A stretch of DNA of 38,512 bases from positions 1 to 38,512 of IMG/VR virus record IMGVR_UViG_3300044546_000258. One strand, 5' to 3'. Within the stretch, counting starts at the first letter, position 1. Each line of letters starts with the position of its first letter. The notes beneath the pieces were generated by a model. The model saw only the letters and a program-made list of their open reading frames with translations. It was not told the origin of the DNA and did no database searches. This document shows, in pieces, positions 21,916-38,512 of the stretch. Origin of the DNA: a virus. A program made the translations under genes and the position numbers.

Positions 21916-21925
21916 ATTATATGGT

Positions 21926-22750
21926 ATGGTTGAAAAGATATTTTTTCAATGTTCACTACCTCGGGCAGGTTCGACACTTTTACAAAATGTGCTGGCGCAA
22001 AACCCTGATTTTTACGCCACACCAACTAGTGGATTGATTGAAATCTTCCTTAATGCTAGAAATATTTATTCTACAAATATTGAATTTAAGGCTCAAGACA
22101 TCAATGTAGTTGAACCAGCATTCAAAGCTCTTTGTAAAGAAGGCATGTTTGCATATTTTAACGCCATCACTGATAAGAAATATGTTATTGACAAGAGCAG
22201 AGGTTGGAGCGTTACATACGATTTTCTAAATTGGTATTATCCAGAACCAAAGGTTATTGTTATGGTTCGCGATCTGCGAGCAGTTGTGGCGAGCATGGAA
22301 AAGAAGTGGCGACAATATCAGCACATCGATGCTGGCCTTCAAAACTGGAACGAACTTCGTAATACTACGGTTGATAAGAGAATCGATTACTTTTTAATGC
22401 AAGCGCCGCCACTTGCTGTAAGTATTGATGTATTGTATGATACTATTATGCGTAAATTAAGTAAGAAATGCTTATTTATTAAGTTTGAAAACTTCGCCAG
22501 TAATCCTCAAAGAGAAATGGAACGAGTATATGAGTATCTTGAATTACCATTTTATCAACACGACTTTAATAATGTAGAACAAAAGACTTTTGAAGATGAC
22601 CGTATGCACATTCCTTTTGGCGACCATACAATTCAAAAAGTAATCAAACCAGTACCTAACGACTATATAGATATTCTTGGAAAACAGAACTGCGATAATA
22701 TATATAACAAGTTCTCTTGGTTCTATAAAGCTTTTAGTTACGATTATTAA
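21926..22750 (+). CDS. PAPS-dependent sulfotransferase family protein
   Basis: 274 residues from ATG 21926. The frame is open further upstream to 21854, but that extension would overlap the kinase gene, and family members begin just before the PAPS-binding loop, as here (MVEKIFFQCSLPRAGSTLL). CSLPRAGST (9-17) is the 5'-phosphosulfate loop. VIVMVRDLRAVVASM (110-124) is the 3'-phosphate site, with Arg115 and Ser123 spaced as in the family (R-x7-S). ENFASNPQREMERVYEYLELPF (188-209) is the typical late helix. It would transfer sulfate from PAPS to a sugar or protein hydroxyl. Next to an APS kinase and two glycosyltransferases it suggests glycan sulfation. The acceptor is unknown. Confidence 0.8.
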   Translation: MVEKIFFQCSLPRAGSTLLQNVLAQNPDFYATPTSGLIEIFLNARNIYSTNIEFKAQDINVVEPAFKALCKEGMFAYFNAITDKKYVIDKSRGWSVTYDFLNWYYPEPKVIVMVRDLRAVVASMEKKWRQYQHIDAGLQNWNELRNTTVDKRIDYFLMQAPPLAVSIDVLYDTIMRKLSKKCLFIKFENFASNPQREMERVYEYLELPFYQHDFNNVEQKTFEDDRMHIPFGDHTIQKVIKPVPNDYIDILGKQNCDNIYNKFSWFYKAFSYDY

Positions 22751-22751
22751 T

Positions 22752-22777
22752 TTCTATAGATAAAAAAATAGTGTAAA
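22752..22777 (+). promoter_or_regulatory. bipartite element TTCTATAG-N10-AGTGTAAA, copy 2
   Basis: TTCTATAG (22752-22759) and AGTGTAAA (22770-22777), separated by ten A/T-rich bases, 13 bases before ATG 22791. Both halves and the spacing equal the copy at 17542-17567. It begins one base after the stop of the sulfotransferase gene, so the 93-residue gene and possibly the glycosyltransferases have their own promoter. Confidence 0.5.
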
Positions 22778-22790
22778 ACTAAATACAAAT

Positions 22791-23072
22791 ATGAGCGACC
22801 CAACATTCCCAATTATCAATCTACCAAGTGCTGTAGAAATTCAACAAGCTGCTAATACCAGTCAAATCGAAATCCTTCAAACCACAGACGACCCAATCGG
22901 TAAGACCGTAAAGAGTTTGGTAAAGATATCAACCACTCCTTACGCTCATAACTGGTATACAGTATGGTCTGGAGATACATATGATCAAGCTGGTCAATGG
23001 ACGGACACCCAATTGTCTGCCGCCATCGTTACTCTAGTAATGGCAGAATATCCTCCTGCTTTGACACGATAA
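22791..23072 (+). CDS. small uncharacterised protein in its own transcription unit
   Basis: 93 residues, not recognised. The N-terminal half is polar and Thr/Ile-rich (LPSAVEIQQAANTSQIEILQTTDDP). The C-terminal half has an aromatic patch (NWYTVWSGDTYDQAGQW) and a short helix (QLSAAIVTLVMAEY). There is no signal peptide, membrane segment or Cys pair. A promoter-like bipartite element precedes it and a strong hairpin terminator follows at 23109-23140, so it is effectively monocistronic. That arrangement is usual for abundantly made or separately timed proteins. Virion decoration or a regulator of the neighbouring enzymes are both possible. There is no Shine-Dalgarno, and the leader is A-rich. 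Confidence 0.6.
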   Translation: MSDPTFPIINLPSAVEIQQAANTSQIEILQTTDDPIGKTVKSLVKISTTPYAHNWYTVWSGDTYDQAGQWTDTQLSAAIVTLVMAEYPPALTR

Positions 23073-23108
23073 TAACTGTAGAAAAAAATACCAAAAATAC
23101 ATAAAATA

Positions 23109-23140
23109 CCTCAAGGACATATTGTTCTTGAGGTTTTTTT
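23109..23140 (+). terminator. intrinsic terminator whose stem contains the next gene's ribosome binding site
   Basis: An 11-bp stem (23109-23119 with 23123-23133, one G-T pair) with a 3-base TAT loop is followed by seven T (23134-23140). The next base is the A of ATG 23141. The 3' arm ends GAGG (23130-23133), which at 7 bases from the ATG is also the only candidate Shine-Dalgarno for the glycosyltransferase gene. Read-through messages would therefore hide their own ribosome site in the stem. Confidence 0.8.
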
Positions 23141-23905
23141 ATGGCTGAAAAAAAGAAAGTATTAATCGCGACTCCATCTTACGACGGTAAACTGGATGTT
23201 TATTATATCGACTCACTTCTAAACACTTTATCATTAGCTGAAAAGAATAATGTAGAAGTATATCCATTGTTTATTTGTTACGACTCTCTTATTCAACGTG
23301 CGCGAAATGATTTGTTTAAACTTGCTTATAGTAACGATATTGATAATTTGTTTTTTATTGATGGTGATGTAGGATGGAATCCTCAAGATTTTTACAAGCT
23401 GGTAAAAAGCGACAAAGATATTATCGGCGGATCTTATAGAAAAAAGACTGACAACGAAGAACTTTACGTTGTGAAAGCTCTTGATAAAGATAATTCTAAA
23501 TTAAATTTGAGCGTTGATAAAGACGGCATTCTTGAAGTGGCGGGTTTAGGTTGCGGATTCATGAAAATTTCTCGCAAAGCTATGAACGCTTTATGGGAGA
23601 TTTCCAAACCGTATACCTCAGAAAAAGGTGACACACGAATGGTGTTTGAAGTTGTTTGTGAAGACGGCGATCTTATCAGTGAAGATATTTATATGTGTAA
23701 AAAGTGGCGCAATCTTGGTAATAACATTTATCTCGATACTAACATCACATGTTCGCACACAGGCGCGAAGACGTTCGTAGGAGACGTTGGTAAATGGATC
23801 AACTCTTTTAAAAATCAAAACACTTTCAACCCACAACCAGCAACTGATTTGTCTAAGTATTTTGTAAAGAATAATAATGAAGATGATTTTAAAGTTCTTG
23901 TATGA
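23141..23905 (+). CDS. GT-A fold glycosyltransferase
   Basis: 254 residues. Starts MAEKKKVLIATPSYDG, the usual first strand. ARNDL (54-58) precedes FFIDGDVGW (71-79), where D-G-D (74-76) is the DxD metal and nucleotide-sugar motif. GLGCGFMKISRKAM (136-148) and SEDIYMCKKWRNLG (180-193) are the acceptor-site and catalytic-acid regions common in phage and capsule GT2-type enzymes, and His206 follows in CSHTG. It would transfer a sugar from a nucleotide sugar to an unknown acceptor. Its ribosome site GAGG lies inside the preceding terminator hairpin. The stop overlaps the next start (ATGA, 23902-23905), so both glycosyltransferases are probably coupled. Confidence 0.8.
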   Translation: MAEKKKVLIATPSYDGKLDVYYIDSLLNTLSLAEKNNVEVYPLFICYDSLIQRARNDLFKLAYSNDIDNLFFIDGDVGWNPQDFYKLVKSDKDIIGGSYRKKTDNEELYVVKALDKDNSKLNLSVDKDGILEVAGLGCGFMKISRKAMNALWEISKPYTSEKGDTRMVFEVVCEDGDLISEDIYMCKKWRNLGNNIYLDTNITCSHTGAKTFVGDVGKWINSFKNQNTFNPQPATDLSKYFVKNNNEDDFKVLV

Positions 23906-24864
23906 CGGATATTTACGCAGACGTTATTTTATTTGATAGCATAGGATCTCCATACGATGGAAATACGATGCACAAATGCGGAATGGGTGGCAGCGAGTTT
24001 CAAGCTATTTTACTTCTTGAAGAGTTAGCTGAAGAAGGATATAAAGTTATATGCCTAAACAATTCTAATAAAGAATCTTTTGTAAATGGAGTGTTGTATG
24101 CGCCAAACAATTTGGTTGATAGTTATAAATTTAAGTGTAAGAATTTAATAATCCATAGGTATAGCGAAATTCCTAAAATCGGTCACAAAAAAGCATTCAT
24201 GTGGGCAACCGATTTGAATGGCGTTCATAATCTAAAATTCTATAAGCTATTTGAAGAAAAGAAACTAACTTTAATTACCCTCAGTAATTTTCATAACGAT
24301 TTGTTTCCAAAGTCTTGGGACAAGCATGTAATTTATTTCATGATACCTGATTGGGTGTATGAGTATTCTATACCAGAGAACAAGAAAGATTATATATACG
24401 CCAGTAGTTTAATGAAAGGATATTCATCCACATTACCATTATGGAAATATCTAAAAAATGAAAAACTACTTAGTAAAACTGATATATTGAATGTTTGTTT
24501 ACCGGGATACGACAATCCGACCCAAGACATAAGCGAAAAAGATTATGGAATCAATTATCTTGGAACGTTGAAGTTCAAAGAAGTTATAGAACTGATGGCG
24601 AAATGTCGCGGCATGTTTTATGTCAATACTATGCCTGAGACTTTTGGCATAAGCGTTGTACTAGCCGACATATTAAAGACGACACCGTTTGTTTATGGTA
24701 TAAACGGTCTAGGAAGTTTATCTGAATTAATAAATAATAAAAATCTTACTACCGACATGCAAGAATACATTAATATGTTTAAAACTTATTCAAGCTTAAA
24801 CGAAACGCCGCGAAACTTCCGCCCAAAGATGGTTATTAAATGGTGGAAGAAAGTATTGATTTAA
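23902..24864 (+). CDS. GT-B fold glycosyltransferase (group 1 type)
   Basis: 320 residues. CGMGGSEFQAILLLEELAEEGYKV (26-49) is the N-terminal Gly-rich loop and helix of group 1 enzymes. PETFGISVVLADILKTTPFV (245-264) is the donor-site motif. The classical E-x7-E has its first Glu (246), but the second position is Leu254, so catalysis may be altered. FMWATDLNGVHN (99-110) and ITLSNFHNDLF (125-135) fit the interdomain region. It overlaps the upstream glycosyltransferase by 4 bases. Its TAA shares bases with the stop of the convergent methyltransferase gene (TTAA, 24861-24864), with no terminator between. It probably works in the same glycan pathway as its neighbour. Confidence 0.75.
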   Translation: MTDIYADVILFDSIGSPYDGNTMHKCGMGGSEFQAILLLEELAEEGYKVICLNNSNKESFVNGVLYAPNNLVDSYKFKCKNLIIHRYSEIPKIGHKKAFMWATDLNGVHNLKFYKLFEEKKLTLITLSNFHNDLFPKSWDKHVIYFMIPDWVYEYSIPENKKDYIYASSLMKGYSSTLPLWKYLKNEKLLSKTDILNVCLPGYDNPTQDISEKDYGINYLGTLKFKEVIELMAKCRGMFYVNTMPETFGISVVLADILKTTPFVYGINGLGSLSELINNKNLTTDMQEYINMFKTYSSLNETPRNFRPKMVIKWWKKVLI

Positions 24865-25490
24865 GGTCTAATAAATAATAGACTTTCGGCAATCAATTCG
24901 TTCTTATCGTTCATAACCGTTTCGACTGGCATAATATAATCAAATTTTAGATCAAACATTTTGTTTAATATTTGATCTTTATTGCAGCCGCCTTCATTAT
25001 AATTATTAAAAGACACTTCGGCGATAACAACTTTAGCGTTTTTAAAAGTATTTATACCGCCTTCTATAATATCTAATTCACTACCTTGAGTGTCTATTTT
25101 TATAAGATCGTAAACATCTTTCACACAATCATCTAATCTATAAATCGGCAACTCTTCGATTATTAAATTTTGTTCGTTATATGTTTGCGAGTTTTCTTTG
25201 TATATAGAATTGCCAGAACAAATTGGACTCCATTTTGTTTTATAAAATTTAGTTGTGCCGTTGATTTTACCAAGCAATTTTATTTGATAATCGTAAAGTT
25301 GTTTTTGGTATAACTTTTCGCACTCAGCATTTCCTTCGAATAATAATATGTTTGCGACAGGCCAGATTTGGCGCATAATGTCTGCCGTTTGGCAGACACT
25401 TGCACCGATATCTAATATATTTTTAGGATAAAATCCTTTGTCTCTGAGTAAGAAACAAATTTGAGAATAATAGTCATAAGAATAACCCAT
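24861..25490 (-). CDS. FkbM family SAM-dependent methyltransferase
   Basis: 209 residues. ILDIGAS (25-31) is the SAM-binding motif I and LLFEGN (49-54) the acidic post-motif. LPIYRLDD then DLIKIDTQGSELDIIEGG (128-145) is the FkbM signature (LD...lKIDvqGsE..vl.G), and VIAEVSF follows. FkbM enzymes usually methylate hydroxyls on sugars or polyketides. It is the last gene of the right-hand fibre operon, 20 bases after the chaperone-like gene, and faces the two glycosyltransferases. It may cap or modify the glycan they build. The ATG 25490 has no clear Shine-Dalgarno. Confidence 0.8.
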   Translation of the reverse strand: MGYSYDYYSQICFLLRDKGFYPKNILDIGASVCQTADIMRQIWPVANILLFEGNAECEKLYQKQLYDYQIKLLGKINGTTKFYKTKWSPICSGNSIYKENSQTYNEQNLIIEELPIYRLDDCVKDVYDLIKIDTQGSELDIIEGGINTFKNAKVVIAEVSFNNYNEGGCNKDQILNKMFDLKFDYIMPVETVMNDKNELIAESLLFIRP

Positions 25491-25510: not shown

Positions 25511-26047
25511 TTAACCATTAAAGCTTGGCATTGGAGGAAATGGAGGAATACTTATATTTGGAGCGGATGTCGGAATGGTGGGCCACACCGCTTGAGTAAC
25601 ATCTGGGATATCTAACATTGTACGCAATTGTTGTCTGAAGTTTTTAAAATCAAGTTTTGCGGCATCAGATATCGGCGAATCAGGCAATTGAGTGAAATCA
25701 GTGATAACTAAATACTGATCGCGAATCATTCTTATGCTAGTCTCTATTCTGTTTTTTCTTATCTCTTCTTCGGACGGAGTCACATTGACTACAGTAAAAG
25801 ATTCATGACAAGTTTTATTCTCAATGTTTAAAGAATAAGATGTTTCGATTTTTTGTTGTATATTAATCGTTGGAAGCGGATCGCTGTTTACAACCCAGAA
25901 CCCTTCGTCGTTTCCAGACCATGATAAATCAGCCAATTGCTCATCAGATAGTGCAAATAAATTAGATATATTTTTGTAATTGTTTGGTAACGCCGCTGGC
26001 GAAGAAACTATTCGATTATTTACTACTAAAACGTAATTTTTATCCAT
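25511..26047 (-). CDS. tail fibre assembly chaperone-like protein (Phage_tail_APC type)
   Basis: 178 residues. Residues ~96-156 contain RKNRIETSIRMIRDQYLVIT, then DFTQLPDSPISDAAKLDFKNF and RQQLRTMLDI...AVWPTIP. This matches the family pattern R..RN.lL..tDWTQlpD.p......w..YRQ.LRdip....p.wP of phage tail fibre assembly chaperones. The N-terminal half (MDKNYVLVVNNRIVSSPAALP) forms a small beta domain. The C-terminus is Pro-rich (ISIPPFPPMPSFNG). The genes around it encode the giant fibre and Kelch-like protein, so it probably helps fold or attach them. It lies two bases downstream of the 200-residue gene. Confidence 0.65.
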   Translation of the reverse strand: MDKNYVLVVNNRIVSSPAALPNNYKNISNLFALSDEQLADLSWSGNDEGFWVVNSDPLPTINIQQKIETSYSLNIENKTCHESFTVVNVTPSEEEIRKNRIETSIRMIRDQYLVITDFTQLPDSPISDAAKLDFKNFRQQLRTMLDIPDVTQAVWPTIPTSAPNISIPPFPPMPSFNG

Positions 26048-26049
26048 AA

Positions 26050-26652
26050 TTATTTAGAGGTATAAGTTATTTGCGGATTGATAAAGTTATTTAATAATGA
26101 TTGTTTAAAATCTAATAAGTTACCAGCCATTGTTGTTCCTGCTTGTATGTTAGCGCGAATGTTACCTTGGTTTATACCAGTCTGTGCGCTCGCCATATCT
26201 TCAAAAGCTTGACGAGTCAAACGACATTCCCAATAACGAGATTCGGCGGCTTCAATTTCATCGTATGTATAAATTTTCGGCAAACTATTTATTAGTTTAA
26301 CAATAGTTTTGATTTCGCGTTCTCTAAAAATCATATTTTCTTCATGTTGGCGCAAAATATATTGTTTCTTACAAGCTTCTAGATTGTCAATTTCATCGTT
26401 TTTTAATTGTAAACGTTTGATTTCTATTTTTAATTTTTCTATGTCAAAACAATCGCCAATAAAGCCATCACGCATAGATTTAAGTTCCATCATTAATTGC
26501 AGAAACTTACGTTCTGGCAAATCGTGTTCTTGCATGACAAACCTTTCTAATTGAAAAGAAGTGCGACCAGCAGTGTATTTAGAAAAATCAATTGCGCCCA
26601 AATCAAACTTATTTGAGAACTCTTTTAATTTGTTATCTAGTAAATTATCCAT
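26050..26652 (-). CDS. uncharacterised coiled-coil protein of the fibre operon
   Basis: 200 residues, family not recognised. Residues ~25-130 are highly charged and helical (KLKIEIKRLQLKNDEIDNLEACKKQ, then EENMIFREREIKTIVKLINSL), predicting a coiled coil. The later part contains ESRYWECRLTRQAFEDMASAQTG and an Asn/Gly/Ala-rich tail (NQGNIRANIQAGTTMAGNLL). It lies 5 bases after the Kelch-like gene and two bases before the chaperone-like gene, so it is co-transcribed with fibre genes. A connector between fibre and virion, or an assembly factor, would fit, but this is inference from context. Confidence 0.6.
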   Translation of the reverse strand: MDNLLDNKLKEFSNKFDLGAIDFSKYTAGRTSFQLERFVMQEHDLPERKFLQLMMELKSMRDGFIGDCFDIEKLKIEIKRLQLKNDEIDNLEACKKQYILRQHEENMIFREREIKTIVKLINSLPKIYTYDEIEAAESRYWECRLTRQAFEDMASAQTGINQGNIRANIQAGTTMAGNLLDFKQSLLNNFINPQITYTSK

Positions 26653-26657
26653 ATATA

Positions 26658-27617
26658 TTATGCCCCGCTACTGCCATTTATCCAACCTGAATTTGTATCA
26701 CCCGTAGTGTAACTATTATTACTCCAAGTTTCTGTTGAAAAAGTTAATTTATGATATGCGCGATTTAATGTATAATTTCTATAACCAGTCCAAACATATC
26801 CAACAGTTGCCGTCGCGCTACATACGCCTTGAAACAACTGCAAACTACCTTCTGGGCTATTAGATCCAGTAGATACTGTTTCTGTTGAAAAAGTTAATTT
26901 AATATTACTAGCGCTTGTAACATTTGCTCCATTAGCTCTATAACCCCATAATGAATTAGAAAAAGCATATCCCTGAGAATTTGATACACTGTCAGTAGCG
27001 GATAAAGTAGACGCTGTATCACTTGTCATAACGTATTTATATATAGTATTAGTATTAGCACCGCTACTATTATATCCACCTATTACATAAGCATTATTAC
27101 TTTCATATAATCCCATAGAAACGTGTCTAGCAGCGGGTATAGCAGTCGTATTTGTTGCTGTATCGCTTGCTGTTGTTATATAAGTAGTATCACTTCTATA
27201 TTGACCAAGAGAGTCGCTATAGCCACCCATAAAATAAAAACGAGACGCTACTATGGTTGGTAAATTAATTGTCGAGCCTCTTCTTTCTACAGTAAAAGAA
27301 ATAGTGGCGGTAGATTGAACGTCACTGGACGCAAGTATTTTGTTTTTAACTGTAACAATTCCAGAATTATAACCATTTATGTGATAAATATTCGTAGAAC
27401 TAAAACCTCCTGCTCCTTGAGATATTCTTGGACCAGTATTCGCATTTCTTGTGGACTCACTATCTGTACTAAAAGATATTGTTCTATTATAACCGACATT
27501 GCTCTGTCCTCCTGTCACATCTCCAAATAAAAAATATGCAGATCCAAAACCAGTAACTTGAGTACCAGCAGCAATCGGAGCGACTTGTGTTTTATTGGGG
27601 CCAAGAAATTTAATCAT
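26658..27617 (-). CDS. Kelch-like beta-propeller structural protein
   Basis: 319 residues made of about six imperfect repeats, each with a Y-x-[hydrophobic]-x-G-[YD] strand (AYFLFGD, IYHINGY, FYFMGGY, AYVIGGY, SLWGYRA, YVWTGYRN) followed by a [IL]xFST[DE] or KY strand (ISFSTDSE, YKYVMTSD, LTFSTETV, LTFSTETW). This is the look of Kelch or galactose-oxidase-like propellers. Such proteins occur beside marine phage tail fibres and are thought to bind receptors. No catalytic residues are evident. It lies 6 bases after the giant fibre gene, in the same operon. The N-terminus MIKFLGPNKTQVAPIAAGTQ may attach to the virion. Confidence 0.6.
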   Translation of the reverse strand: MIKFLGPNKTQVAPIAAGTQVTGFGSAYFLFGDVTGGQSNVGYNRTISFSTDSESTRNANTGPRISQGAGGFSSTNIYHINGYNSGIVTVKNKILASSDVQSTATISFTVERRGSTINLPTIVASRFYFMGGYSDSLGQYRSDTTYITTASDTATNTTAIPAARHVSMGLYESNNAYVIGGYNSSGANTNTIYKYVMTSDTASTLSATDSVSNSQGYAFSNSLWGYRANGANVTSASNIKLTFSTETVSTGSNSPEGSLQLFQGVCSATATVGYVWTGYRNYTLNRAYHKLTFSTETWSNNSYTTGDTNSGWINGSSGA

Positions 27618-27623
27618 ATGTTA

Positions 27624-30600
27624 TTATAGATTTTGACCTACGATAATTGCATAAATATTAGTACCGCCATCATAAGTAACAAATTGATAAATATCTCGCT
27701 TAGAACTTGCAGTTGTAAGAGTTGGCGCAGTGCCTCCCGGCCATTTTATTGCGGCGGGCCAAGTTATTGAATAACCAACGCCACCACCAACTGTTACAAT
27801 TGTCCACATATGAACAATACTGCTTGCTTGAATATTTGATAAAGTCAATGTTGTTATTGTTGCGGCGAGAGTTAATTCTGTTAAATTATACTGAGTATCA
27901 ATTGTTGTAGATGATGCCGCTGTTACTGTTACTCTTTCGCCATATGTGTTTCTTGTTCTTACTGCATTTAAAACACTTGTACTAGCAGGATCAACATAAT
28001 AAGCAGTGTCGTTACTGTCATAAAATATAGGAGCGCGAAAATCTGTATCAGAATAAGCTGTTCCGACAACGTGTAGTTTTTGTGAAGGACTTGTTGTACC
28101 TATACCAACATTACCATCAACAAGAAGCCCAATAGTATTAGCGCCAGGACCACCTGCTGTATTTGATAATAAATGAAAATATGTATTTACTGTTCCACTT
28201 CCAGGTTGAGTCCTTGGAGTTAAATAAATTCTAGGATTTCCAGAATTATATCCAGTGTAATATAATTTTACGTTATCGTAAGAAGCATTATCTCCTACAT
28301 CTCCTAATCTAATTCCTTCACTACCCCCGCCAATATTAAAAGCTCCTCTAACATCTAACTTTAGTGACGGACTTGTTGTACCTATACCAACATTACCACT
28401 ACTATCAACATTTATTCTTCTATTACCTTGGCCGTCAGAGATTATAATGTTATTGGCAATTGTGGCACTTAATCCTGTGACGTTTGCGCCTAAGATTGTG
28501 TTGTAGTTGCCTGTGGTAATACCACGACCAGTGTTATAACCAATTATTGTGTTTGCGGTTCCTGTTGTAATATCATATCCAGAAGTATCACCCAACGCAC
28601 TATTACTAGTACCTGTTGAATTTGCATTCATCGAATTATGACCAATTGCTGTGTTGGACGATCCGGTTGTATTTGTAAATAATGCATATGTACCAAATGA
28701 ACAATTATAATTGCCAATTGTGTTAAAAGGCATTGCATTGTGACCCATTGCTACATTTCTTATACCAGTCGTATTCCACCTTAATGCTTGCAATCCAACA
28801 GCAGTGTTTGAATTTCCCGTTGTATTTCTAGCTAATGTATAATATCCGAATGCACTATTACAAACACCAGTTGTATTAGCATTTAATGCTTTATAACCAA
28901 AAGCGCTGTTATTGTTTGTTGTATTAGCTGATAAAGCAGCATAACCAAATGCACTGTTGTTGTTACCAACTACGTTATTTACCAGAGCATATTTACCAAA
29001 TGCACAGTTTCTATTACCTGTCGTATTAGCAAATAAAGCAGCAGAACCAAACGCATTATTGTCATTACCAATTGTATTAGCCTTTAAAGAGTCTACACCA
29101 AATGCGTTATTGCGAACACCGCCTGTGTTATTTCTCAAAGCGTATAAACCAAACGCACTATTACTTACGCCTGTTGTGTTATTTAATAAAGACGCATGTC
29201 CAACTGCGGTATTATATCTACCAAATGTATTGTTTGTTAAAGCACTACGTCCAACTGCTGTATTTAAATCACCAGTTGTATTAGCAGACATTGCATATGT
29301 GCCAAATGCACTATTGTTACTACCTGTAGTATTAGTTCTTAAAGCGTATTTACCAAACGCACTATTATTAACGCCTGTTGTATTAAATATTAAAGCTTGA
29401 AAACCAAATGCATTATTATTTGCGCCAATTGTATTTCTTTCTAAAGCGCTAGTGCCAAATGCGCTATTACCATTACCTGTGGTATTAAGATTTAGTGCTT
29501 GATAACCAACTGCGGTATTATATAAACCAATTGTATTAGATAATAAAGATGAAAAACCTACAGCGGTATTGTATATACCAGTTGTATTAGCGTATAATGA
29601 ATATGTACCAATTGCGGTATTATTACTGCCTGTTGTATTTGCTTGTAATGATTGTTGTCCAAAAGCTGTATTATAATTACCAAAAGTATTAAATAATAAC
29701 GATGAACGACCAAACGCACTATTACTAATACCCGTTGTATTATTTATAAGTGCATACATACCAAATGCTGTATTATTTGAACCAGTTGTATTGTTTTGTA
29801 ATGAACCACGACCAAAAGCACTATTACCATTACCTATTGTATTTGTTTTTAAAGAGCCATAACCAAACGCACTATTACTACTAGCTGTTGTAGTATACAT
29901 CAACGCTTGAAGACCAAATGCACTGTTCCTAGTACCTATTGTGTTATTTCTTAAAGCTTCTTTACCAAATGCACTGTTAAATTCACCAATTGTATTAGCA
30001 TTTAATGCTTTGTAACCAAACGCACTGTTATTACTTACAGTATTATTAAGCAAAGCTTGAAAACCAACAACGGTATTATTACTACCAGTAGTATTAGCGA
30101 ATAATGAATTATATCCTATAGCGGTATTACTATTTCCAGAAACATTATTATATAAAGTTGTATAACCAAACGAAGTGTTATTATTACCAACTGTGTTCTG
30201 AGCTAAACTTTCATATCCAACCGCACAATTAAATTGACCAGCTGTATTATTAACTAAAGCTCTATTACCGACTGCAACATTTCTTATACCAACCGTATTT
30301 GATTTTAAAGCATAAAACCCAAATGCACTGTTAAAATTACCCGTGGTATTATTTAATAAAGCATTTGTACCAAAGGCGCTATTACCTTCGCCTATAGTAT
30401 TTGCTTGTAATGTTCCATTGCCGACGGCTGTATTATTGCTACCAGTTGTATTATAATATAATGAATTAAAACCTACTGCTACATTATTAACACCTATTGT
30501 ATTACTTACTAAACTACTATAACCAAATGCGCTATTATTTCCACCAATAGTATTATAAAATAAACTAGCGACACCAACGGCTGTATTACCTGTGCCTATT

Positions 30601-33600
30601 GTATTGTTTTGCAATGCGCCTTTTCCAAATGCCGAATTATTTATTCCTGTTGTATTACTTAATAAAGCGCTTAGACCAACTGCTGTATTGTTGTTACCTA
30701 TAGTATTGCTTTGCAATGCGCTTGTTCCTACAGCAGTATTACTTTGACCTATAGTATTACTAAGTAAAGACTGATAACCTACAGCAACATTATTTGCACC
30801 TATTGTATTAACAGCTAAAGCTTGATTACCAAATGCGGTATTATAACTACCTGTTGTATTTGATTTTAAAGCGTAATAACCAAACGCACTGTTAAATCCA
30901 CCGATTGTATTATTTAATAATGATCCCCAACCAAATGCACTATTTCTTTGACCAATTGTATTTGCGAGTAAAGATTTATATCCAAATGCACTATTTAATG
31001 TACCTGTTGTGTTAGCAAACAAAGATTTATATCCAAAAGCGCTATTGGCGCTTGCCGTATTAGCATTTAAAGCGGAATATCCAACTGATGTGTTATTATT
31101 TGCATTTGCAGTTTGTAAAGAACCCATTCCTATTGCAACATTTCCACCACCAGCTATATTATTTCTCAATGCATATGAACCAAAAGCACTATTATTTCCA
31201 CCAGTTGCATTTTGTCTTAAACTTTCGAATCCAACCGCAGTATTAAATTGTCCACTGGTATTAGAGTATAATGATTCTAAACCAAATGCACTATTAGCAC
31301 CACCGCTATTGTTAGCGTATAACGCTGCATATCCAACTGCTGTGTTTCTAGTGCCAACGGTATTATAATATAAAGAGTAAGCGCCAACAGCAGTGTTAGA
31401 AATACCTGTAGTATTTAACAATAATGAGTATATACCAAACGCACTATTATTAGATCCTCTTGTATTTGTACCCAAAGCACTTCTACCCATTGCGGTATTG
31501 TTTATACCAGTAGTGTTATACTTTAAAGCGTAATTACCAAATGAACTGTTACTTGTACCTATGGTATTACCTTTTAAAGAGTCTCTACCAAATGCACTAT
31601 TTCCATAACCTGTTGTATTAGCAGTTAATGCGTTAGATCCAAAAGCGCTGTTATTGTTTGTTGTATTAAAATAAAGAGCGTTATAACCAAATGCCGCATT
31701 ATTATTACCACTTACATTTGCTAGCATACAGTTAAAACCAACCGCTGTGTTGTTACCTCCGACTGTATTATAATTTAATGCTTGACGACCAAATGCACTA
31801 TTATTACTACCTGATGAGTTGCTTTGTAAAGCGGCGCGGCCAAAAGCACTATTATAAACACCAGTTGTATTTGTCAATAAAGCATACATACCAAAAGCAC
31901 TATTATCTGCGCCAATTGTATTATTATATAAAGCAGCTCTACCAACCGCTGTATTTCTACTACCTGTAGTATTCTTATATAGCGCTTCATCACCAATAGC
32001 GATATTAAATTGACCTATAGTATTGCTGAACAAAGTTTGATGACCCATTGCAACGTTATAATTACCACTTGTATTTGTAATCAACGATTTAAAACCAAAC
32101 GCTGCATTTCTATGTCCCGTAGTATTAACGGCCAATGCTTTATAACCAAATGCACTGTTATTGCTTGTTGTGTTAGCCTCTAAAGCTTGAAAACCAACGG
32201 CAGTATTTGCACTACCTATTATATTAACTGATAATGCGCTACGACCAAGTGCTGTATTGTAAATACCAATTGTATTAGAATTTAATGCGTATGTACCAAA
32301 TGCTGAATTATTACTTCCGGTTGTATTAGCGGTTAATGAACCGTATCCTACAGCCGTATTTAATGAACCTATTGTATTATTTTGTAATGCAGCAGTACCT
32401 ACAGCTACGCTTGAATAACCAGTTGTGTTAGCGAATAACGCTTTATAACCAAACGCACTGTTACTGCTTGTAGTATTAGACACTAATGCATAAGCGCCAA
32501 ATGCACTATTATTATTTCCATTAACATTTAATGCAATTGCATTGCGACCAAATGCAGTATTATTTGCTCCGACTGTATTTGAGGTTAATGATGTTTTTCC
32601 GAAGGCAGAATTATTATAACCTGTTGTGTTGGCTTTTAGAGCGTAATAACCAAAAGCATTATTATCGCTTCCTCCTGTATTGTTTACTAACGAATTAACG
32701 CCTACTGCATTATTTCTTGCACCTGATATATTGTTTGCTAAAGCGTTTGTACCAATCGCGACGTTATTAACACCAACTGTATTATATCTTAATGATTGAA
32801 AACCAACGGCAGTATTACTAACACCAGTTGTATTTTCTCTTAAAGCGTTAAATCCAAACGCGCTATTGTTACTTACGGTATTATTAAACAAAGCAAAATA
32901 ACCAAATGCACTATTATTACTGCCACCTACATTAAGTATTAAAGCTGCGTGACCAAATGCGCTGTTAAAACTGCCTGTTGTATTTGTTTGTAAAGTGCCG
33001 AAACCAATAGCGGTATTATAAGTACCAGTGGTATTGGCAAATAATGATTTGTAACCGAATGCTGAATTATTATAACCTATTGTGTTAGCTGTTAGTGATT
33101 TATAACCAAACGAGGTATTATTTACACCTACAGTATTACTTGATAATGATTGATAACCAAAAGCACTATTTGCTATACCCGTGGTATTATTAGTTAATGC
33201 TTGTTGACCAACAGCGGTATTATTTTTACCTATAGTATTACTAAGCAAACTATTCAATCCAACTGCTGTGTTTCCATTACCTGTGGTATTATACAATAAA
33301 GCTTGCATACCAACAGCAACGTTGTTTACGCCAATTGTATTATATCTTAAAGCGCTATAACCGAAAGCGGTATTATTGTTTGTGGTATTGGTATATAAAG
33401 CATAATTACCGAAAGCGCTATTATTACTTCCTACTGTATTTACATATAATGATTGTAAACCTACAGCAGTATTTTTACCACCAGTTGTATTAGAATTAAG
33501 TGCTTGTTGACCTACAGCAGTATTATTAACACCGCCTGTATTAGATAATAAAGCATTTACACCAACAGCAACATTAGATGCACCTGTAATATTATTTATT

Positions 33601-36600
33601 AAAGCATATCTACCAAAGGCACTATTATTTACTCCTGTAGTATTATAATACAAAGCGTTATGACCAACAGTGGTATTATTTGTACCAATCGTATTACTAA
33701 ATAAAGCAGCTCTACCAACCGATGTATTTCCACTACCTGTAGTATTGTATCTTAATGCTTGCATACCAAACGCACTATTATTACTACCTGTAGTATTGCT
33801 TTGTAAAGTACCTAAACCAGTAGCGGTATTAGCAGTACCAATTGTATTAGAATATAAAGCATTATGACCCACCGCAGTATTATTATCAGTCGTATTATTA
33901 TATAATGATTGATAACCTACACTAACGTTATTACTAGCACTAGTAACGGAATGTAAACTTTGATAACCAATTGCTATATTTTTTTGACCAGTGCTATTTA
34001 ATACAAGCGATTGTTGACCAATTGCTATATTTGATCCACCAGTTGTATTGTAATACAAAGCGTTTAATCCTATTGCAATATTGCTATAACCAAATGTGCT
34101 TGTTCTTAAACTATTAGTACCAATTGCAATATTGTAAATACCAGATGTATTGCTCAGTAAAGCGTATGTACCAAATGCAGTATTACTTACGCCAATTGTA
34201 TTAGCCGATAACGAGCTTAAACCAACAGCTACATTGTTTGTACCAGTTGTATTAGCAAATAATGCTTTATATCCGAAAGCGCTATTATTATTTGTAGTGT
34301 TAGCGTACAAAGCTAGATGCCCAATTGCTGTATTGTTATTGCCTATGAGATTTGTATACAATGCTTGCGTACCCATTGCAACATTTGATGATCCACTTGT
34401 ATTTAATATTAATGCTTGATAACCAACAGCTACGTTACTAGCACCTGTTTTGTTGCTTTCCAATGCACTACGACCAACGGCTACTATATAATTTGCAGTA
34501 TTACTATACAATGATCTCCAACCTATACCAACTGTATCACTTGCGTTACCAACATTACATGCTTGGTAACCAAAATAAGAATTTCTTTCACCAGTTGTAT
34601 TTGAGTTACCAGATTGATAACCTACAGCAGTATTAGCTGAACCTATTGTATTTTGACTTAAAGCATACGCACCAATTGCACTGTTATTAACGCCAGTCGT
34701 ATTAGAGTATAATGTTTGTCTACCAACAGCTGTATTATTACTACCTGTAGTATTATAATATAAACTATAAACACCAAATGCGGAATTGCTATTACCTATA
34801 GTATTATATCGCAACGCTTGCATACCAAATGCACTATTACTAGCGCCTGTTGTATTTGCAAATAAAGATGTATAGCCAAAAGCACTATTACTGTTTGCTG
34901 TGTTATTAAATAATGCGTTTGTGCCTACAGCGGTATTATTATTACCAACGGCATAAAATAACGCATTTACGCCTACAGCAACATTAGCAGAACCAACAAT
35001 ATTTGTAAATAAAGACCCTCTTCCAACCGCAGTGTTATAACCGCCTGTTGTATTATTACGAAGTGATGATCTTCCTATTGCGGTATTTTCCACACCAATT
35101 GTGTTAGCATATAAAGATGTATAACCAAATGCACTATTATTAGAACCACTTACATTACTAAATAATGATTGATAACCTACAGCAGTATTAGCAGCACCAA
35201 TGCTATTAGATCTCAAAGAATAATTACCAAATGCGACGTTTGCGGCACCTGATGTATTTTCTCTTAAAGTGTATATGCCAAATGCGGAATTTTGTTGACC
35301 AATTGTATTATTTCTTAAAGCATGGTAACCCACCGCAGTATTATTACTACCACTAGTGGTTAATCGCAATGCGTCTCTACCCACAGCGGTATTACTAGAA
35401 CCAACTGTATTACCTCTCAAAGCGTATAAACCGAATGCAGAATTATTTATACCTGTGGTATTACTGAATAAACTATAAAAACCAAATCCACTGTTACTAA
35501 TACCAGTTGTATTATTATAAAGTGACTTATAACCAAATGCACTATTAAAACTACCAATCGTATTAACAAATAAAGCTCTATATCCAAAAGCGCTATTATT
35601 TCCTCCAGTTGTATTATAGAACATTGATTGGAAACCAACAGAAACATTGTTGGCACCAATTGTATTATTAAACAAAGCATTAACACCTACGGCTGTATTT
35701 TTAACGCCGGTAGTATTGTATCTTAATGCAGTTTCACCAAATGCGCTATTGTAATTGCCAATTGTATTGTTCTGTAAAGAACCATTTCCTATAGCAGTGT
35801 TTCCTGTGCCAGTTGTATTATTTAATAATGCTTTATAACCAAATGCGTTGTTATTGTTTGTGGTATTGTTGTATAAAGCGTATATTCCAAATGCCGCATT
35901 ACTTGATCCAATAACATTTAAACGTAAAGCCTGATTACCAACAGCGGTATTATTTGCGCCTGTAGTATTAGTAAATAATGATCTAAATCCTACAGCGGTA
36001 TTGTTAGAAGCGATTGTATTATTTGCTAATGAGTCTAAACCTACAGCAACATTTGAAGCTCCTGTTGTGTTAGCTGCTAAAGCTGCATAACCAACTGCGG
36101 TATTGTTATTTGTAGTGTTATTTTGTAAAGCTGTATATCCTACTGCTGTATTATTAGAACCTATTGTATTATTTACTAAAGCGCTAACACCAACTGCGAC
36201 ATTATAATTACCAGTAGTATTTGAGTATAAAGAAACTCCACCAAATGCAGTATTATTTAATCCGATTGTATTGAATCTCATTGAATTCAATCCAAAAGCA
36301 CTGTTGTTAGTACCAGTTGTATTATTTAAAAGAGCATAAGCGCCAAATGCATTATTATTACTTGCTGTGCTATTTTTTAATGCGCTTCTACCCATAGCTG
36401 TACTATTTACGCCAATTGTATTAGTTTGTAAAGCGGCATCACCAAATGCGCTATTATTTGCTCCAGTAGTATTATAAAGTAAAGAATAATGACCGAATGC
36501 GCTATTTGAAACTCCTAATGTATTAATTTGTAATGAACTTCTGCCAACGGCTGTATTAGATATACCTACAGTATTATTAGCTAAAGCATATGCACCAACA

Positions 36601-38512
36601 GCAGTATTTTGAGTACCAGTTGTATTAGAGTTTAAAGCTACATAACCAAATGCACTATTGTCTACACCTGTTGTATTAGCAAATAAAGCCTGAGAACCAA
36701 ATGCGCTATTTCTTGCCCCTATTGTATTTGAAAATAAACTATTTAATCCAACAGCAGTATTATTGCTACCAGTAGTATTAGTTTGTAATGTTTGATAACC
36801 AAAAGCAGCATTGTTTGTGCCTATTGTGTTATTTTGTAAAGCGGCAAAACCAAATGCTGCATTTCTATAACCTGTTGTATTTGCAAATAATGCTTTGTAA
36901 CCAAATGCGTTGTTACCGCTTGTAATGTTATTTTGTAAAGAACCATAACCAACAGCAGTATTATTTGTACCAATTGTGTTGGAATATAAAGAATTAGCAC
37001 CAACTGATGTGTTATTTATACCAGTTGTGTTAGAAAATAAAGAAGAATAACCAATAGCTATATTTGCTGTTCCTATTGTATTTGTCTTTAAAGATTCAAA
37101 ACCAAATGCACTATTATAGTTACCAGTTGTATTAAATCTTAAAGAAGCGTAACCAAATGCACTATTATTAGCACCGATTGTATTGTTTCTTAGTGAATAA
37201 AATCCAAATGCATTATTAGAACTACCAGTTGTATTTGATAGTAATGAATAAAATCCTACAGCAACATTGTATGTGCCAATAGTATTACTTGATAAAGCGT
37301 TAGTGCCTATAGCAACATTATAATTTGTGGTATTAGAATATAAAGCATCAGAACCAATAGCAACATTGTGACTACCAAGTACATTACTGAATAATGATCT
37401 ATAACCAAATGCTGTATTATAAGCACCACTTGTATTATTTCTCAAAGCATTATAACCAAATGCGTTATTTCTAAAACCTGTTGTATTTGCTTTTAATGCT
37501 TGAAAACCAAATGCACTATTATTGTTTGTGGTATTATTGTTTAATGCACTATAACCAAATGCACTATTTGAAGCACCAATCGTATTATAAAGCAATGAAT
37601 TGTGACCAAATGCACTGTTATTCTTACCAGTAGTGTTGCTATATAAAGTATCTTTACCAACCGCAGTATTACTATAACCAAACGTATTGAATCTCAAAGA
37701 TCTATTACCTATAGCTACGTTATAATTACCAGTAGTATTAGCTCTTAAAGCATAATAACCAAATGCATTATTATCAATACCTATTGTATTAGATCTCAAT
37801 GATCTATAACCAAAAGCGTTATTTCTACTACCTGTAGTATTGCTATATAAAGCATAGCTGCCGAATGCATTATTAAAATTACCAATTGTATTATTTGCTA
37901 ATGAATAATAACCAACAGCGGTATTATTAACACCTGTCGTATTTGCATTTAATGCAGTATTTCCAACAGCAGTATTACTAGCAACATTACCAGTACCTCT
38001 TCCAACAATAACACTATTAATAGACAAACTATGTACAACATCTGTAGTATTACTATCTCCAAGCGCTGATGCAGAAGTAAATTTGGCTATTGTATTTGTT
38101 GTGCCTGAAGCGTTGGCGCTTGTTCCAGACGAACCGCTTGTGCCAGACGAACCACTCGTCCCAGATGTACCAGAAGAACCGCTTGTACCAGACGAACCAC
38201 TCGTTCCACTTGTTCCAGAAGAACCACTCGTCCCACTTGTTCCAGAAGAACCACTTGTTCCAGATGTCCCAGAAGAACCGCTTGTGCCAGATGTTCCAGA
38301 AGAACCGCTTGTACCAGAAGAACCACTTGTCCCAGATGTGCCAGAAGAACCGCTTGTGCCAGACGAACCACTCGTCCCACTTGTTCCAGAAGAACCACTT
38401 GTTCCAGATGTCCCAGAAGAACCGCTTGTGCCAGAAGAACCACTTGTCCCAGATGTGCCAGAAGAACCGCTTGTGCCAGACGAACCACTCGTCCCACTTG
38501 TTCCAGAAGAAC
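27624..38512 (-). CDS. giant repetitive tail fibre, N-terminus beyond right edge
   Basis: At least 3628 residues in one open frame from the right edge to TAA at 27624. A TTG at 38027 might be taken as the start, but the frame continues upstream without a stop as GTTNTIAKFTSASALGDS and then a Gly-Thr-Ser/Gly-Ser-Ser repeat, so the true start lies outside. Order of parts: G-x-y collagen-like shaft (38512 to ~38118), a linker, about 185-190 copies of a 17-residue repeat (~37976 to ~28475; consensus N-[TS]-A-[FV]-G-x-x-[AS]-L-x-x-N-T-[TI]-G-x-x), then VGIGTTSPSLKLDV, VGIGTTSPSQKLHV, FYDSNDTAYYVDPAST, and a beta-rich tip ending WPAAIKWPGGTAPTLT and IYAIIVGQNL. The tip resembles known phage fibre ends, and no S74 self-cleaving chaperone is seen. 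First gene of the operon carrying Kelch-like, chaperone-like and FkbM genes. Confidence 0.85.
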   Translation of the reverse strand, partial: SSGTSGTSGSSGTSGSSGTSGTSGSSGTSGSSGTSGTSGSSGTSGTSGSSGTSGSSGTSGTSGSSGTSGSSGTSGTSGSSGTSGTSGSSGTSGTSGSSGTSGTSGSSGTSGSSGTSGTSGSSGTSGSSGTSANASGTTNTIAKFTSASALGDSNTTDVVHSLSINSVIVGRGTGNVASNTAVGNTALNANTTGVNNTAVGYYSLANNTIGNFNNAFGSYALYSNTTGSRNNAFGYRSLRSNTIGIDNNAFGYYALRANTTGNYNVAIGNRSLRFNTFGYSNTAVGKDTLYSNTTGKNNSAFGHNSLLYNTIGASNSAFGYSALNNNTTNNNSAFGFQALKANTTGFRNNAFGYNALRNNTSGAYNTAFGYRSLFSNVLGSHNVAIGSDALYSNTTNYNVAIGTNALSSNTIGTYNVAVGFYSLLSNTTGSSNNAFGFYSLRNNTIGANNSAFGYASLRFNTTGNYNSAFGFESLKTNTIGTANIAIGYSSLFSNTTGINNTSVGANSLYSNTIGTNNTAVGYGSLQNNITSGNNAFGYKALFANTTGYRNAAFGFAALQNNTIGTNNAAFGYQTLQTNTTGSNNTAVGLNSLFSNTIGARNSAFGSQALFANTTGVDNSAFGYVALNSNTTGTQNTAVGAYALANNTVGISNTAVGRSSLQINTLGVSNSAFGHYSLLYNTTGANNSAFGDAALQTNTIGVNSTAMGRSALKNSTASNNNAFGAYALLNNTTGTNNSAFGLNSMRFNTIGLNNTAFGGVSLYSNTTGNYNVAVGVSALVNNTIGSNNTAVGYTALQNNTTNNNTAVGYAALAANTTGASNVAVGLDSLANNTIASNNTAVGFRSLFTNTTGANNTAVGNQALRLNVIGSSNAAFGIYALYNNTTNNNNAFGYKALLNNTTGTGNTAIGNGSLQNNTIGNYNSAFGETALRYNTTGVKNTAVGVNALFNNTIGANNVSVGFQSMFYNTTGGNNSAFGYRALFVNTIGSFNSAFGYKSLYNNTTGISNSGFGFYSLFSNTTGINNSAFGLYALRGNTVGSSNTAVGRDALRLTTSGSNNTAVGYHALRNNTIGQQNSAFGIYTLRENTSGAANVAFGNYSLRSNSIGAANTAVGYQSLFSNVSGSNNSAFGYTSLYANTIGVENTAIGRSSLRNNTTGGYNTAVGRGSLFTNIVGSANVAVGVNALFYAVGNNNTAVGTNALFNNTANSNSAFGYTSLFANTTGASNSAFGMQALRYNTIGNSNSAFGVYSLYYNTTGSNNTAVGRQTLYSNTTGVNNSAIGAYALSQNTIGSANTAVGYQSGNSNTTGERNSYFGYQACNVGNASDTVGIGWRSLYSNTANYIVAVGRSALESNKTGASNVAVGYQALILNTSGSSNVAMGTQALYTNLIGNNNTAIGHLALYANTTNNNSAFGYKALFANTTGTNNVAVGLSSLSANTIGVSNTAFGTYALLSNTSGIYNIAIGTNSLRTSTFGYSNIAIGLNALYYNTTGGSNIAIGQQSLVLNSTGQKNIAIGYQSLHSVTSASNNVSVGYQSLYNNTTDNNTAVGHNALYSNTIGTANTATGLGTLQSNTTGSNNSAFGMQALRYNTTGSGNTSVGRAALFSNTIGTNNTTVGHNALYYNTTGVNNSAFGRYALINNITGASNVAVGVNALLSNTGGVNNTAVGQQALNSNTTGGKNTAVGLQSLYVNTVGSNNSAFGNYALYTNTTNNNTAFGYSALRYNTIGVNNVAVGMQALLYNTTGNGNTAVGLNSLLSNTIGKNNTAVGQQALTNNTTGIANSAFGYQSLSSNTVGVNNTSFGYKSLTANTIGYNNSAFGYKSLFANTTGTYNTAIGFGTLQTNTTGSFNSAFGHAALILNVGGSNNSAFGYFALFNNTVSNNSAFGFNALRENTTGVSNTAVGFQSLRYNTVGVNNVAIGTNALANNISGARNNAVGVNSLVNNTGGSDNNAFGYYALKANTTGYNNSAFGKTSLTSNTVGANNTAFGRNAIALNVNGNNNSAFGAYALVSNTTSSNSAFGYKALFANTTGYSSVAVGTAALQNNTIGSLNTAVGYGSLTANTTGSNNSAFGTYALNSNTIGIYNTALGRSALSVNIIGSANTAVGFQALEANTTSNNSAFGYKALAVNTTGHRNAAFGFKSLITNTSGNYNVAMGHQTLFSNTIGQFNIAIGDEALYKNTTGSRNTAVGRAALYNNTIGADNSAFGMYALLTNTTGVYNSAFGRAALQSNSSGSNNSAFGRQALNYNTVGGNNTAVGFNCMLANVSGNNNAAFGYNALYFNTTNNNSAFGSNALTANTTGYGNSAFGRDSLKGNTIGTSNSSFGNYALKYNTTGINNTAMGRSALGTNTRGSNNSAFGIYSLLLNTTGISNTAVGAYSLYYNTVGTRNTAVGYAALYANNSGGANSAFGLESLYSNTSGQFNTAVGFESLRQNATGGNNSAFGSYALRNNIAGGGNVAIGMGSLQTANANNNTSVGYSALNANTASANSAFGYKSLFANTTGTLNSAFGYKSLLANTIGQRNSAFGWGSLLNNTIGGFNSAFGYYALKSNTTGSYNTAFGNQALAVNTIGANNVAVGYQSLLSNTIGQSNTAVGTSALQSNTIGNNNTAVGLSALLSNTTGINNSAFGKGALQNNTIGTGNTAVGVASLFYNTIGGNNSAFGYSSLVSNTIGVNNVAVGFNSLYYNTTGSNNTAVGNGTLQANTIGEGNSAFGTNALLNNTTGNFNSAFGFYALKSNTVGIRNVAVGNRALVNNTAGQFNCAVGYESLAQNTVGNNNTSFGYTTLYNNVSGNSNTAIGYNSLFANTTGSNNTVVGFQALLNNTVSNNSAFGYKALNANTIGEFNSAFGKEALRNNTIGTRNSAFGLQALMYTTTASSNSAFGYGSLKTNTIGNGNSAFGRGSLQNNTTGSNNTAFGMYALINNTTGISNSAFGRSSLLFNTFGNYNTAFGQQSLQANTTGSNNTAIGTYSLYANTTGIYNTAVGFSSLLSNTIGLYNTAVGYQALNLNTTGNGNSAFGTSALERNTIGANNNAFGFQALIFNTTGVNNSAFGKYALRTNTTGSNNSAFGTYAMSANTTGDLNTAVGRSALTNNTFGRYNTAVGHASLLNNTTGVSNSAFGLYALRNNTGGVRNNAFGVDSLKANTIGNDNNAFGSAALFANTTGNRNCAFGKYALVNNVVGNNNSAFGYAALSANTTNNNSAFGYKALNANTTGVCNSAFGYYTLARNTTGNSNTAVGLQALRWNTTGIRNVAMGHNAMPFNTIGNYNCSFGTYALFTNTTGSSNTAIGHNSMNANSTGTSNSALGDTSGYDITTGTANTIIGYNTGRGITTGNYNTILGANVTGLSATIANNIIISDGQGNRRINVDSSGNVGIGTTSPSLKLDVRGAFNIGGGSEGIRLGDVGDNASYDNVKLYYTGYNSGNPRIYLTPRTQPGSGTVNTYFHLLSNTAGGPGANTIGLLVDGNVGIGTTSPSQKLHVVGTAYSDTDFRAPIFYDSNDTAYYVDPASTSVLNAVRTRNTYGERVTVTAASSTTIDTQYNLTELTLAATITTLTLSNIQASSIVHMWTIVTVGGGVGYSITWPAAIKWPGGTAPTLTTASSKRDIYQFVTYDGGTNIYAIIVGQNL
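28475..37976 (-). repeat. 17-codon (51-bp) tandem repeat array, about 185-190 units
   Basis: Each unit encodes NxA[FV]Gxx[AS]LxxNT[TI]Gxx. Most units are 51 bp, and a minority are 45-48 bp where TGxx is shortened (NTTNNNSAFG type, for example near 37526, 36110, 35862, 34290, 31662). Thr and Ile at the T-[TI]-G position tend to alternate, giving a 34-residue double unit. Synonymous positions are scrambled between units. The count is estimated from span divided by unit length. Confidence 0.9.
38118..38512 (-). repeat. Gly-Thr-Ser / Gly-Ser-Ser triplet repeat (collagen-like)
   Basis: A 9-bp period runs to the window edge. On the minus strand every third codon is Gly, followed by Thr-Ser or Ser-Ser (or TSA-type variants at the inner end). 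There is no Pro. Such G-x-y runs form trimeric shafts in phage fibres. The array contains a 117-bp direct repeat (see separate entry). Confidence 0.85.
38314..38512 (-). repeat. 117-bp direct repeat inside the triplet array
   Basis: Bases 38314-38395 are identical to 38431-38512, a shift of 117 bp (39 codons, 13 triplets). The copies may extend past the edge. To the left the match continues with single differences (38313 A vs 38430 G, and one each in the two preceding 10-base blocks). This suggests a recent in-frame duplication. Confidence 0.8.

Follow-up and report, generated by a model that had tools for sequence, protein, structure and literature searches.

The window analysed here is the whole 38,512-base stretch of viral record IMGVR_UViG_3300044546_000258. 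Its right-hand end is occupied by a giant fibre gene on the minus strand (27624..38510), which encodes 3628 residues followed by a stop codon and is incomplete in this record, the 5' end of the reading frame being open at the contig edge. With 28.3% of the window the gene has the extent given by the initial annotation, a fibre of at least 3628 residues covering about 28% of the DNA. The fibre and the genes downstream of it are composed as follows.

38118..38512, minus strand: collagen-like stalk (GXX, SSGTSG), C-terminal part only (Pfam Collagen, 6.4e-15)
37980..38117, minus strand: linker of about 46 residues from the collagen to the first coil (translation, position of the repeat chain)
28506..37979, minus strand: array of 17-residue repeats, about 186 coils (repeat chain, AlphaFold2 solenoid, fold matches)
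28008..28505, minus strand: array cap and two GNVGIGTTSPSxKL modules; probable fibre-A/fibre-B junction (DNA identity, junction comparison)
27627..28007, minus strand: C-terminal tip, predicted beta domain (pLDDT 83.9, pTM 0.76; PHROG matches)
27624..27626, minus strand: stop codon of the fibre gene
26658..27617, minus strand: Kelch-like protein, directly downstream (PF24681, E 2.7e-8, below the curated cut-off)
26050..26652, minus strand: phrog_1409 protein
25511..26047, minus strand: tail fibre assembly chaperone, third gene downstream (phrog_4912, 2.6e-12; Pfam Phage_tail_APC, 3.9e-8, over the cut-off)

A second viral contig, IMGVR_UViG_3300042430_000602 (L009, here the twin), overlaps window positions 25529-38512. 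The overlap measures 12,984 bases and is free of mismatches and gaps, in two records which do not necessarily stem from independent reads. The fibre gene is complete in the twin; it starts with an ATG at L009:68 and encodes 3820 residues, beginning MSSYTAFQVRNGTSG. Full-length numbering is obtained by adding 192 to the window residue. The full-length protein is made of an anchor (residues 1-11, MSSYTAFQVRN), a GXX run (12-323), a linker (to 369), the array (370-3527), the cap with two GIGTTSP modules (to 3693) and the tip (3694-3820). Collagen-like phage fibres are recognized by a long uninterrupted GXX run, and the run in the twin is perfect over 312 residues; about 131 residues of it, the first of the fibre in the window, are visible there. 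As the collagen part contains a stretch of at least 120 bases that recurs exactly, the length of the collagen is less secure than that of the array.

The array is organized around a unit of 17 residues, with the consensus x-N-[ST]-A-[FV]-G-x-x-[AS]-L-x-x-N-T-[TI]-G-x. Tandem Repeats Finder reported periods of 51, 102 or 153 in 18 of its 25 rows, and residue autocorrelation peaked at offsets 17 (0.46), 34 (0.42) and 51 (0.38), all remaining offsets between 10 and 55 giving 0.04-0.20. The best chain includes 185 units over 185.8 unit lengths, spaced by 17 residues in 162 cases and by 16 in 20, with one spacing of 33 and one of 34; the 185-190 copies estimated from the sequence at the outset are thus confirmed. 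Column counts refer to the 160 seventeen-residue units collected by a finder which requires Gly at column 6 and limits columns 4, 5 and 10. Asn 2 was found in 157, Asn 13 in 155, Gly 16 in 156 and Thr 14 in 139 of these. Since the finder constrains columns 4, 5, 6 and 10, Asn 2, Asn 13 and Gly 16 provide free evidence for the consensus, and the unit described in the initial annotation holds at columns outside the constraints. Variation is highest at columns 1, 7, 8, 11, 12 and 17. Each array chain carries a net charge of +75, acidic residues amounting to about 1%. Synonymous codons are mixed at conserved columns (Ala 4 is encoded by GCA in 74 units, GCT in 49, GCG in 21 and GCC in 9), and the mean DNA identity of units is 0.59-0.60 whether they are 1-12, 20, 30 or at least 40 units apart. 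We read the array as an old repeat maintained at the protein level. Ordinary tandem duplication was considered and set aside, as neighbours are no more alike than other units and no sign of recent local duplication was seen.

Repeats are a classic source of misassembly, and expansion or collapse during assembly had been named at the outset as what would undo the interpretation of the array. The exact repeat in the collagen part, together with the possible dependence of the twin on the same reads, speaks for an artefact. Against it, the array is identical in the twin, is free of exact repeats as long as 35 bases, and has counterparts of 147-164 pattern-counted units in three related contigs. 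Because units are about 59% alike at any distance and exact repeats stay below 35 bases, the length of the array is very unlikely to have been produced by assembly.

The fold of the array was predicted by AlphaFold2 from an ungapped alignment of 50 ten-unit stretches, 14 of them overlapping stretches from the window and 36 from eight related loci (50 of the 55 listed were used, one from L011 and four from L012 being left out); rows are 49-90% identical to the first. Ten units were modelled as a monomer into a regular solenoid with two strands per 17 residues (pLDDT 86.6, pTM 0.82), in agreement with the solenoid proposed at first. The mean pLDDT of the five models was 86.6, 82.1, 81.4, 76.5 and 63.1. 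Foldseek matched the ten-unit model to no PDB entry at E 0.001 or better; its 256 candidates were re-scored with VIA-align, which alone gave clear alignments. The top match is the head of the Fusobacterium trimeric autotransporter CbpF (Z 15.0, rmsd 2.0, 144 aligned residues, 28-29% identity), followed by a ryegrass ice-binding protein (Z 14.8) and left-handed beta-helix enzymes (Z up to 13.8); the AtaA Ylhead (Z 13.7) and the YadA-like head of BoaA (Z 12.3) were also found. Rows within 1 Z of each other count as tied, and the autotransporter head is preferred to the other folds because of higher identity and context, not because of Z. The CbpF, AtaA and BoaA heads, the enzymes and the ice-binding protein are left-handed beta-helices or beta-rolls, and the array solenoid is therefore likely to be left-handed as well. 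An ice-binding fibre, a candidate prompted by the ryegrass match, had no other support and was dropped. CbpF is described as a homotrimer with a beta-roll (PMC12012533).

Among predicted viral structures, 78 Foldseek matches were obtained at E 0.001 or better; a P-SSM2 protein and proteins annotated as 'Collagen triple helix repeat' are among the matches listed. At the sequence level, the best match of the window to YadA_head (PF05658) scores 12.9 bits for a cut-off of 25. The model is over its cut-off in none of 11 records, 4 of which match at E 1 or better; of 14 control genomes, 4 match and 1 is over the cut-off. The likeness to YadA heads advanced in the initial annotation is thus supported by the predicted fold, and fails as membership of the sequence family. 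A Pfam scan of the window fibre, the C-terminus of which is complete, returned only Collagen up to E 1, and no YadA-type membrane anchor. Searching 241 residues by phmmer against the sequences of solved structures gave nothing up to E 1, and the 50-row profile matched only three TRPV5 sequences (E 2.3), taken as chance, so that no sequence link to solved structures was retained. NCBIfam returned only two models for collagen adhesins, both far below their cut-offs, and one for a hexapeptide transferase (E 0.08). YadA-like heads of trimeric autotransporters have about 14-16 residues per coil. The predicted beta-roll aligns with such heads (CbpF, AtaA Chead, BoaA) at Z 12.3-15.0, a range which the enzymes and the ice-binding protein also reach, and differs from them in having 17 residues per coil, in being coded in a phage and in staying below the YadA_head cut-off; unlike the autotransporters, the fibre has no Pfam match to a membrane anchor.

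The repeat is present in other phages as well. A tblastn search in which a 241-residue stretch at the C-terminal end of the array served as query identified it in 90 of 50,697 phage records; a megablast against phages gave no match. In ten phage records, picked by hand from the best-ranked 40 of the 90 and including three which are not isolates, arrays span 10.1 to 32.8 coils. The repeat matches PHROG families 23837, 6002 and 4636 (E 0, with 27, 42 and 34 stretches, respectively), the first two being virion structural families filed under 'head and packaging', the third a tail spike family. Gp55 of Methylophilales phage Venkman and gp48 of Pelagibacter phage HTVC112P match the same families as the window protein, which suggests that the latter is a virion protein. 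Venkman gp55 (about 33 coils), HTVC112P gp48 (about 26), PSSM2_298 of Prochlorococcus phage P-SSM2 (about 27) and gp48 of Roseobacter phage CRP-7 (about 16) are made of the same 17-residue repeat as the window fibre with its 186 coils. All four feature the intramolecular chaperone domain S74 (Peptidase_S74), absent from the window fibre, and none has the Pfam Collagen match found there. Venkman is reported to have siphovirus-like genes and, by TEM, a short tail, possibly because the tail was lost in preparation (PMC8163748). A tail fibre with a YadA domain has already been reported in a paper on marine phages, which also shows S74 as one of the fibre domains (PMC3909814).

The same repeat resides in bacteria. 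The 79 loci examined are mainly from Bacteroidota, such as Flavobacterium, and their arrays have a median of 8 and a maximum of 58 units, some loci being cut. In the one bacterial repeat protein scanned with Pfam, S74 lies at the end, as in the phage relatives. Among 99 IMG/VR loci, several of which share a contig and most of which were collected through their tip and not their repeat, the highest pattern counts are 183 (the twin), 164 (L018), 152 (L015) and 147 (L011, a partial array, the contig being cut at the array start). The related contigs L015/L041, L018 and L011/L043 carry long arrays like that of the window; a collagen-like stalk was seen in L015 and L018, and the N-terminus of L015 is identical to that of the window lineage, MSSYTAFQVRNG. 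In contrast to the window, all three have S74 in the array gene, followed by a second long fibre gene. The repeat is thus an established phage and bacterial module, and an array considered unusual for a phage fibre proved so in length, and not in the repeat itself, which is already included in PHROGs. What sets the window fibre apart is how long its array is, together with its collagen stalk, its probably swapped C-terminus and the exchange of blocks with related phages; the alternation at column 15, described below, is likewise new. A literature search over titles and abstracts, subscription journals lying largely outside it, found no publication on this array.

When the window gene was compared with thirteen other array genes, internal blocks were found to be shared with two, L011 and L015. 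Residues 2054-2575 correspond to L011 367-889 (94.7% DNA identity, about 31 coils, displaced by about 78 coils), residues 2709-3032 to L015 1257-1580 (95.7%, about 19 coils, displaced by about 80), and residues 411-655 to L015 595-839 (89.8%, about 14 coils, displaced by about 16). Further long blocks are common to L011 and L015, and to L010 and L015; between L018 and the other thirteen array genes no common block reached both 150 bases and 88% identity. Values of dN/dS in five shared blocks are 0.24, 0.51, 0.38, 0.40 and 0.56, and are counted as a sign of selection on the blocks. In an ungapped test both edges of the 2709-3032 block drop to background within about one coil, and both edges of the 411-655 block are gradual. 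The right edge of the 2054-2575 block drops over two to three coils; at its left edge the ungapped comparison loses register. We read the shifted blocks as probable traces of in-register recombination between related phages.

Neighbouring coils follow a two-coil rule at one position. Five columns were tested for lag-1 autocorrelation, and at column 15 Thr alternates with a bulky residue, the value being -0.33 in the window gene (none of 2000 shuffles was as low). Negative lag-1 values, each with a P of at most 0.0245 from 2000 shuffles, were obtained for all eight arrays of at least 56 units, which share blocks and are not eight independent cases. Among 162 neighbouring pairs in the window gene, 94 combine Thr with a bulky residue (I, V, F, L), 15 consist of two Thr and 9 of two bulky residues; about 58, 35 and 24 are expected by chance. 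The alternation is absent from two shorter phage arrays (Venkman, 0.01; HTVC112P, 0.28), and Phe at column 5 clusters rather than alternates in the same eight arrays (0.12 to 0.41). Such alternation would be accounted for by steric constraints if column 15 packs in the core or along the trimer axis.

The array cap is 91-97% identical in DNA to L010, L011, L012 and L015. The best PHROGs of the tip are 19200, 9017, 7760 and 22179; phrog_19200, the best, is filed under head and packaging, and the other three of the four under tail fibre. In fold, the tip model comes closest to the Pa223 capsid spike (Foldseek E 0.009, Z 7.7). As all fold matches lie below Z 8, no function of the tip is claimed from its fold. 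The S74 domain, found in 7 of the 10 records searched, has 0 matches in the window record and in the twin record.

Four loci, L013, L041 (on the L015 contig), L043 (on the L011 contig) and L012, have two successive fibre genes, one for an array fibre with S74 and the next for a second long fibre, of 2235-2811 residues, which ends in the tip domain; L043 and L012 belong to near-identical viruses, their contigs sharing 3,762 identical bases. The tip of this second fibre is 74% identical to that of the window in L013 and 37-39% in L041, L043 and L012; the second long fibre gene of L018 has no tip match. In L031, L032, L033, L036 and L038, a fibre lacking the array and carrying the tip (71-88%) precedes the same Kelch-like gene. 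In the window and the twin, array and tip are in one gene. Fibre A of L015 is matched by residues 3481-3581 (75%) and fibre B of L013 by residues 3625-3820 (60%); over its last 146 residues the window fibre matches the L032 fibre (85%). Two GNVGIGTTSP motifs reside in the junction stretch, and recombination at these motifs is the simplest reading of the junction. The junction may lie later than in L015, since over residues 3481-3676 a match of 50% was obtained to fibre A of L011, which has two GIGT modules. On these comparisons, an array fibre and the tip of a neighbouring fibre have probably been fused in the window protein. Two records, which overlap and may be incomplete, show the fused form; the two-gene form would be its ancestor.

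The Kelch-like gene downstream is 53-80% identical in eight related loci and 100% in the twin. Upstream of the giant fibre, the twin contig carries a terminase gene, unassigned genes and, directly upstream, a separate gene for a collagen-like fibre of 517 residues (L204:10073-11626; Pfam Collagen, 1.2e-50). In HTVC111P, HTVC112P and CRP-831 the repeat gene follows the tape-measure and tail genes, and in P-SSM2 it resides among tail fibre genes.

Other parts of the window were annotated alongside. A sulfation/glycan-like cassette (21460-25490) lies between the tail and fibre genes, and encodes an APS-kinase-like protein (PF01583, 6.6e-14), a sulfotransferase (PF13469, 6e-18), an FkbM methyltransferase (PF05050, 2.3e-11), a glycosyltransferase-like protein (weak PHROG match) and one protein that has no family match. 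The cassette is kept in related loci, the sulfotransferase being 92-100% identical in L017, L031, L034, L035 and L041. A speculative role would be the modification of the Ser/Thr-rich collagen or fibre, or else of a glycan of the host. The tape measure protein (7963-15738, minus strand; 2591 residues; phrog_4211, 2.6e-45) features four GF[IV]PNFA motifs and one related GYIPAA; at 0.15 nm of tail length per residue, the usual rule, it implies very roughly a tail of 390 nm. Just upstream of its gene two reading frames overlap by 23 bases (15767-17519, minus strand), and tail assembly chaperones with a frameshift often sit at this place. A protein of 580 residues (5316-7058, minus strand) has a GINTTTP motif resembling the GIGTTSP of the fibre, and only a weak BppU_N match.

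The product of the giant gene is probably a very long homotrimeric virion fibre for reaching and recognizing the host, most likely placed on the tail. Collagen at one end and the frequency of S74 in the group of relatives suggest a trimer. The short N-terminal end, of 11 residues in the twin, would be anchored on the virion side. Next outward would come the collagen-like triple helix, which at a rise of 0.286 nm per residue would measure about 89 nm over its 312 residues, and then a left-handed beta-roll of about 186 coils, of the type found in the heads of trimeric autotransporters. Beta-rolls rise by 0.47-0.48 nm per coil, and the array would accordingly span about 88-90 nm; the length of about 90 nm is a fair estimate on this basis. 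The collagen stalk, absent from the initial annotation, would roughly double the fibre, to a total of about 180 nm. Outermost would be the cap with its two GIGTTSP modules and the beta-domain tip, which may touch the host and bind the receptor. By comparison, the T4 long tail fibre is given as about 145 nm and made of four proteins (PMC5537660), and the longer fibre of Sf14 as 63 nm (PMC11821841). The T4 fibre is likewise long, trimeric and reaching for the host; it is built of other folds, whereas here one polypeptide may extend to the inferred 180 nm.

Placement on the capsid, as a head fibre decorating the shell and sticking loosely to cells or surfaces, would accommodate the filing of PHROGs 23837 and 6002 and of the best PHROG of the tip under head and packaging, the likeness of the tip to the Pa223 capsid spike, and the terminase and collagen fibre genes upstream on the twin contig. 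PHROG categories are annotations, not tests, and three of the four best tip families are tail fibre families; the tail fibre assembly chaperone encoded nearby and the position of the gene in the tail module of phages with the same repeat also point away from the capsid, which makes a head fibre unlikely and attachment to the tail the favoured placement. A different question is which part of the fibre binds. The array itself might form a multivalent, net positive binding surface through the exposed variable positions of its coils, for instance for an acidic surface polysaccharide. Its most variable columns and its charge are consistent with such a role, and CbpF is described as binding its receptor through a loop of the beta-roll (PMC12012533). 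The fibre has, however, a separate tip domain, which ends other fibres too, and binding by the array is quite improbable.

In the preferred reading, that of a tail fibre with a binding tip, the array would be a spacer of adjustable length made of interchangeable coils. A crossover in coil register would stay in frame, and blocks of coils could move between related phages. The array fibre would have acquired the tip of the adjacent fibre gene, the GNVGIGTTSP motif common to both being the probable point of joining, and for this reason the window version would lack the C-terminal S74 of most relatives. Going further, the array could be a ruler that is cut anew, in which in-register exchange of 14-31 coils sets the reach, the column-15 rule limits which joins are tolerated, and the fused tip has replaced the chaperone; this extension is tentative, and we hold it to be possible rather than probable.

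If the model is correct, a single polypeptide would build a fibre longer than the long tail fibre of T4, and its length could be changed by simple in-frame exchange of coils. Such exchange would be a cheap way of tuning the reach of a phage through the capsule or other surface layers of its host. The locus would allow fibre evolution by block transfer and by fusion of neighbouring fibre genes to be put to the test, and protein engineers would find in the arrays a large natural collection of solenoid coils that can be exchanged for one another.
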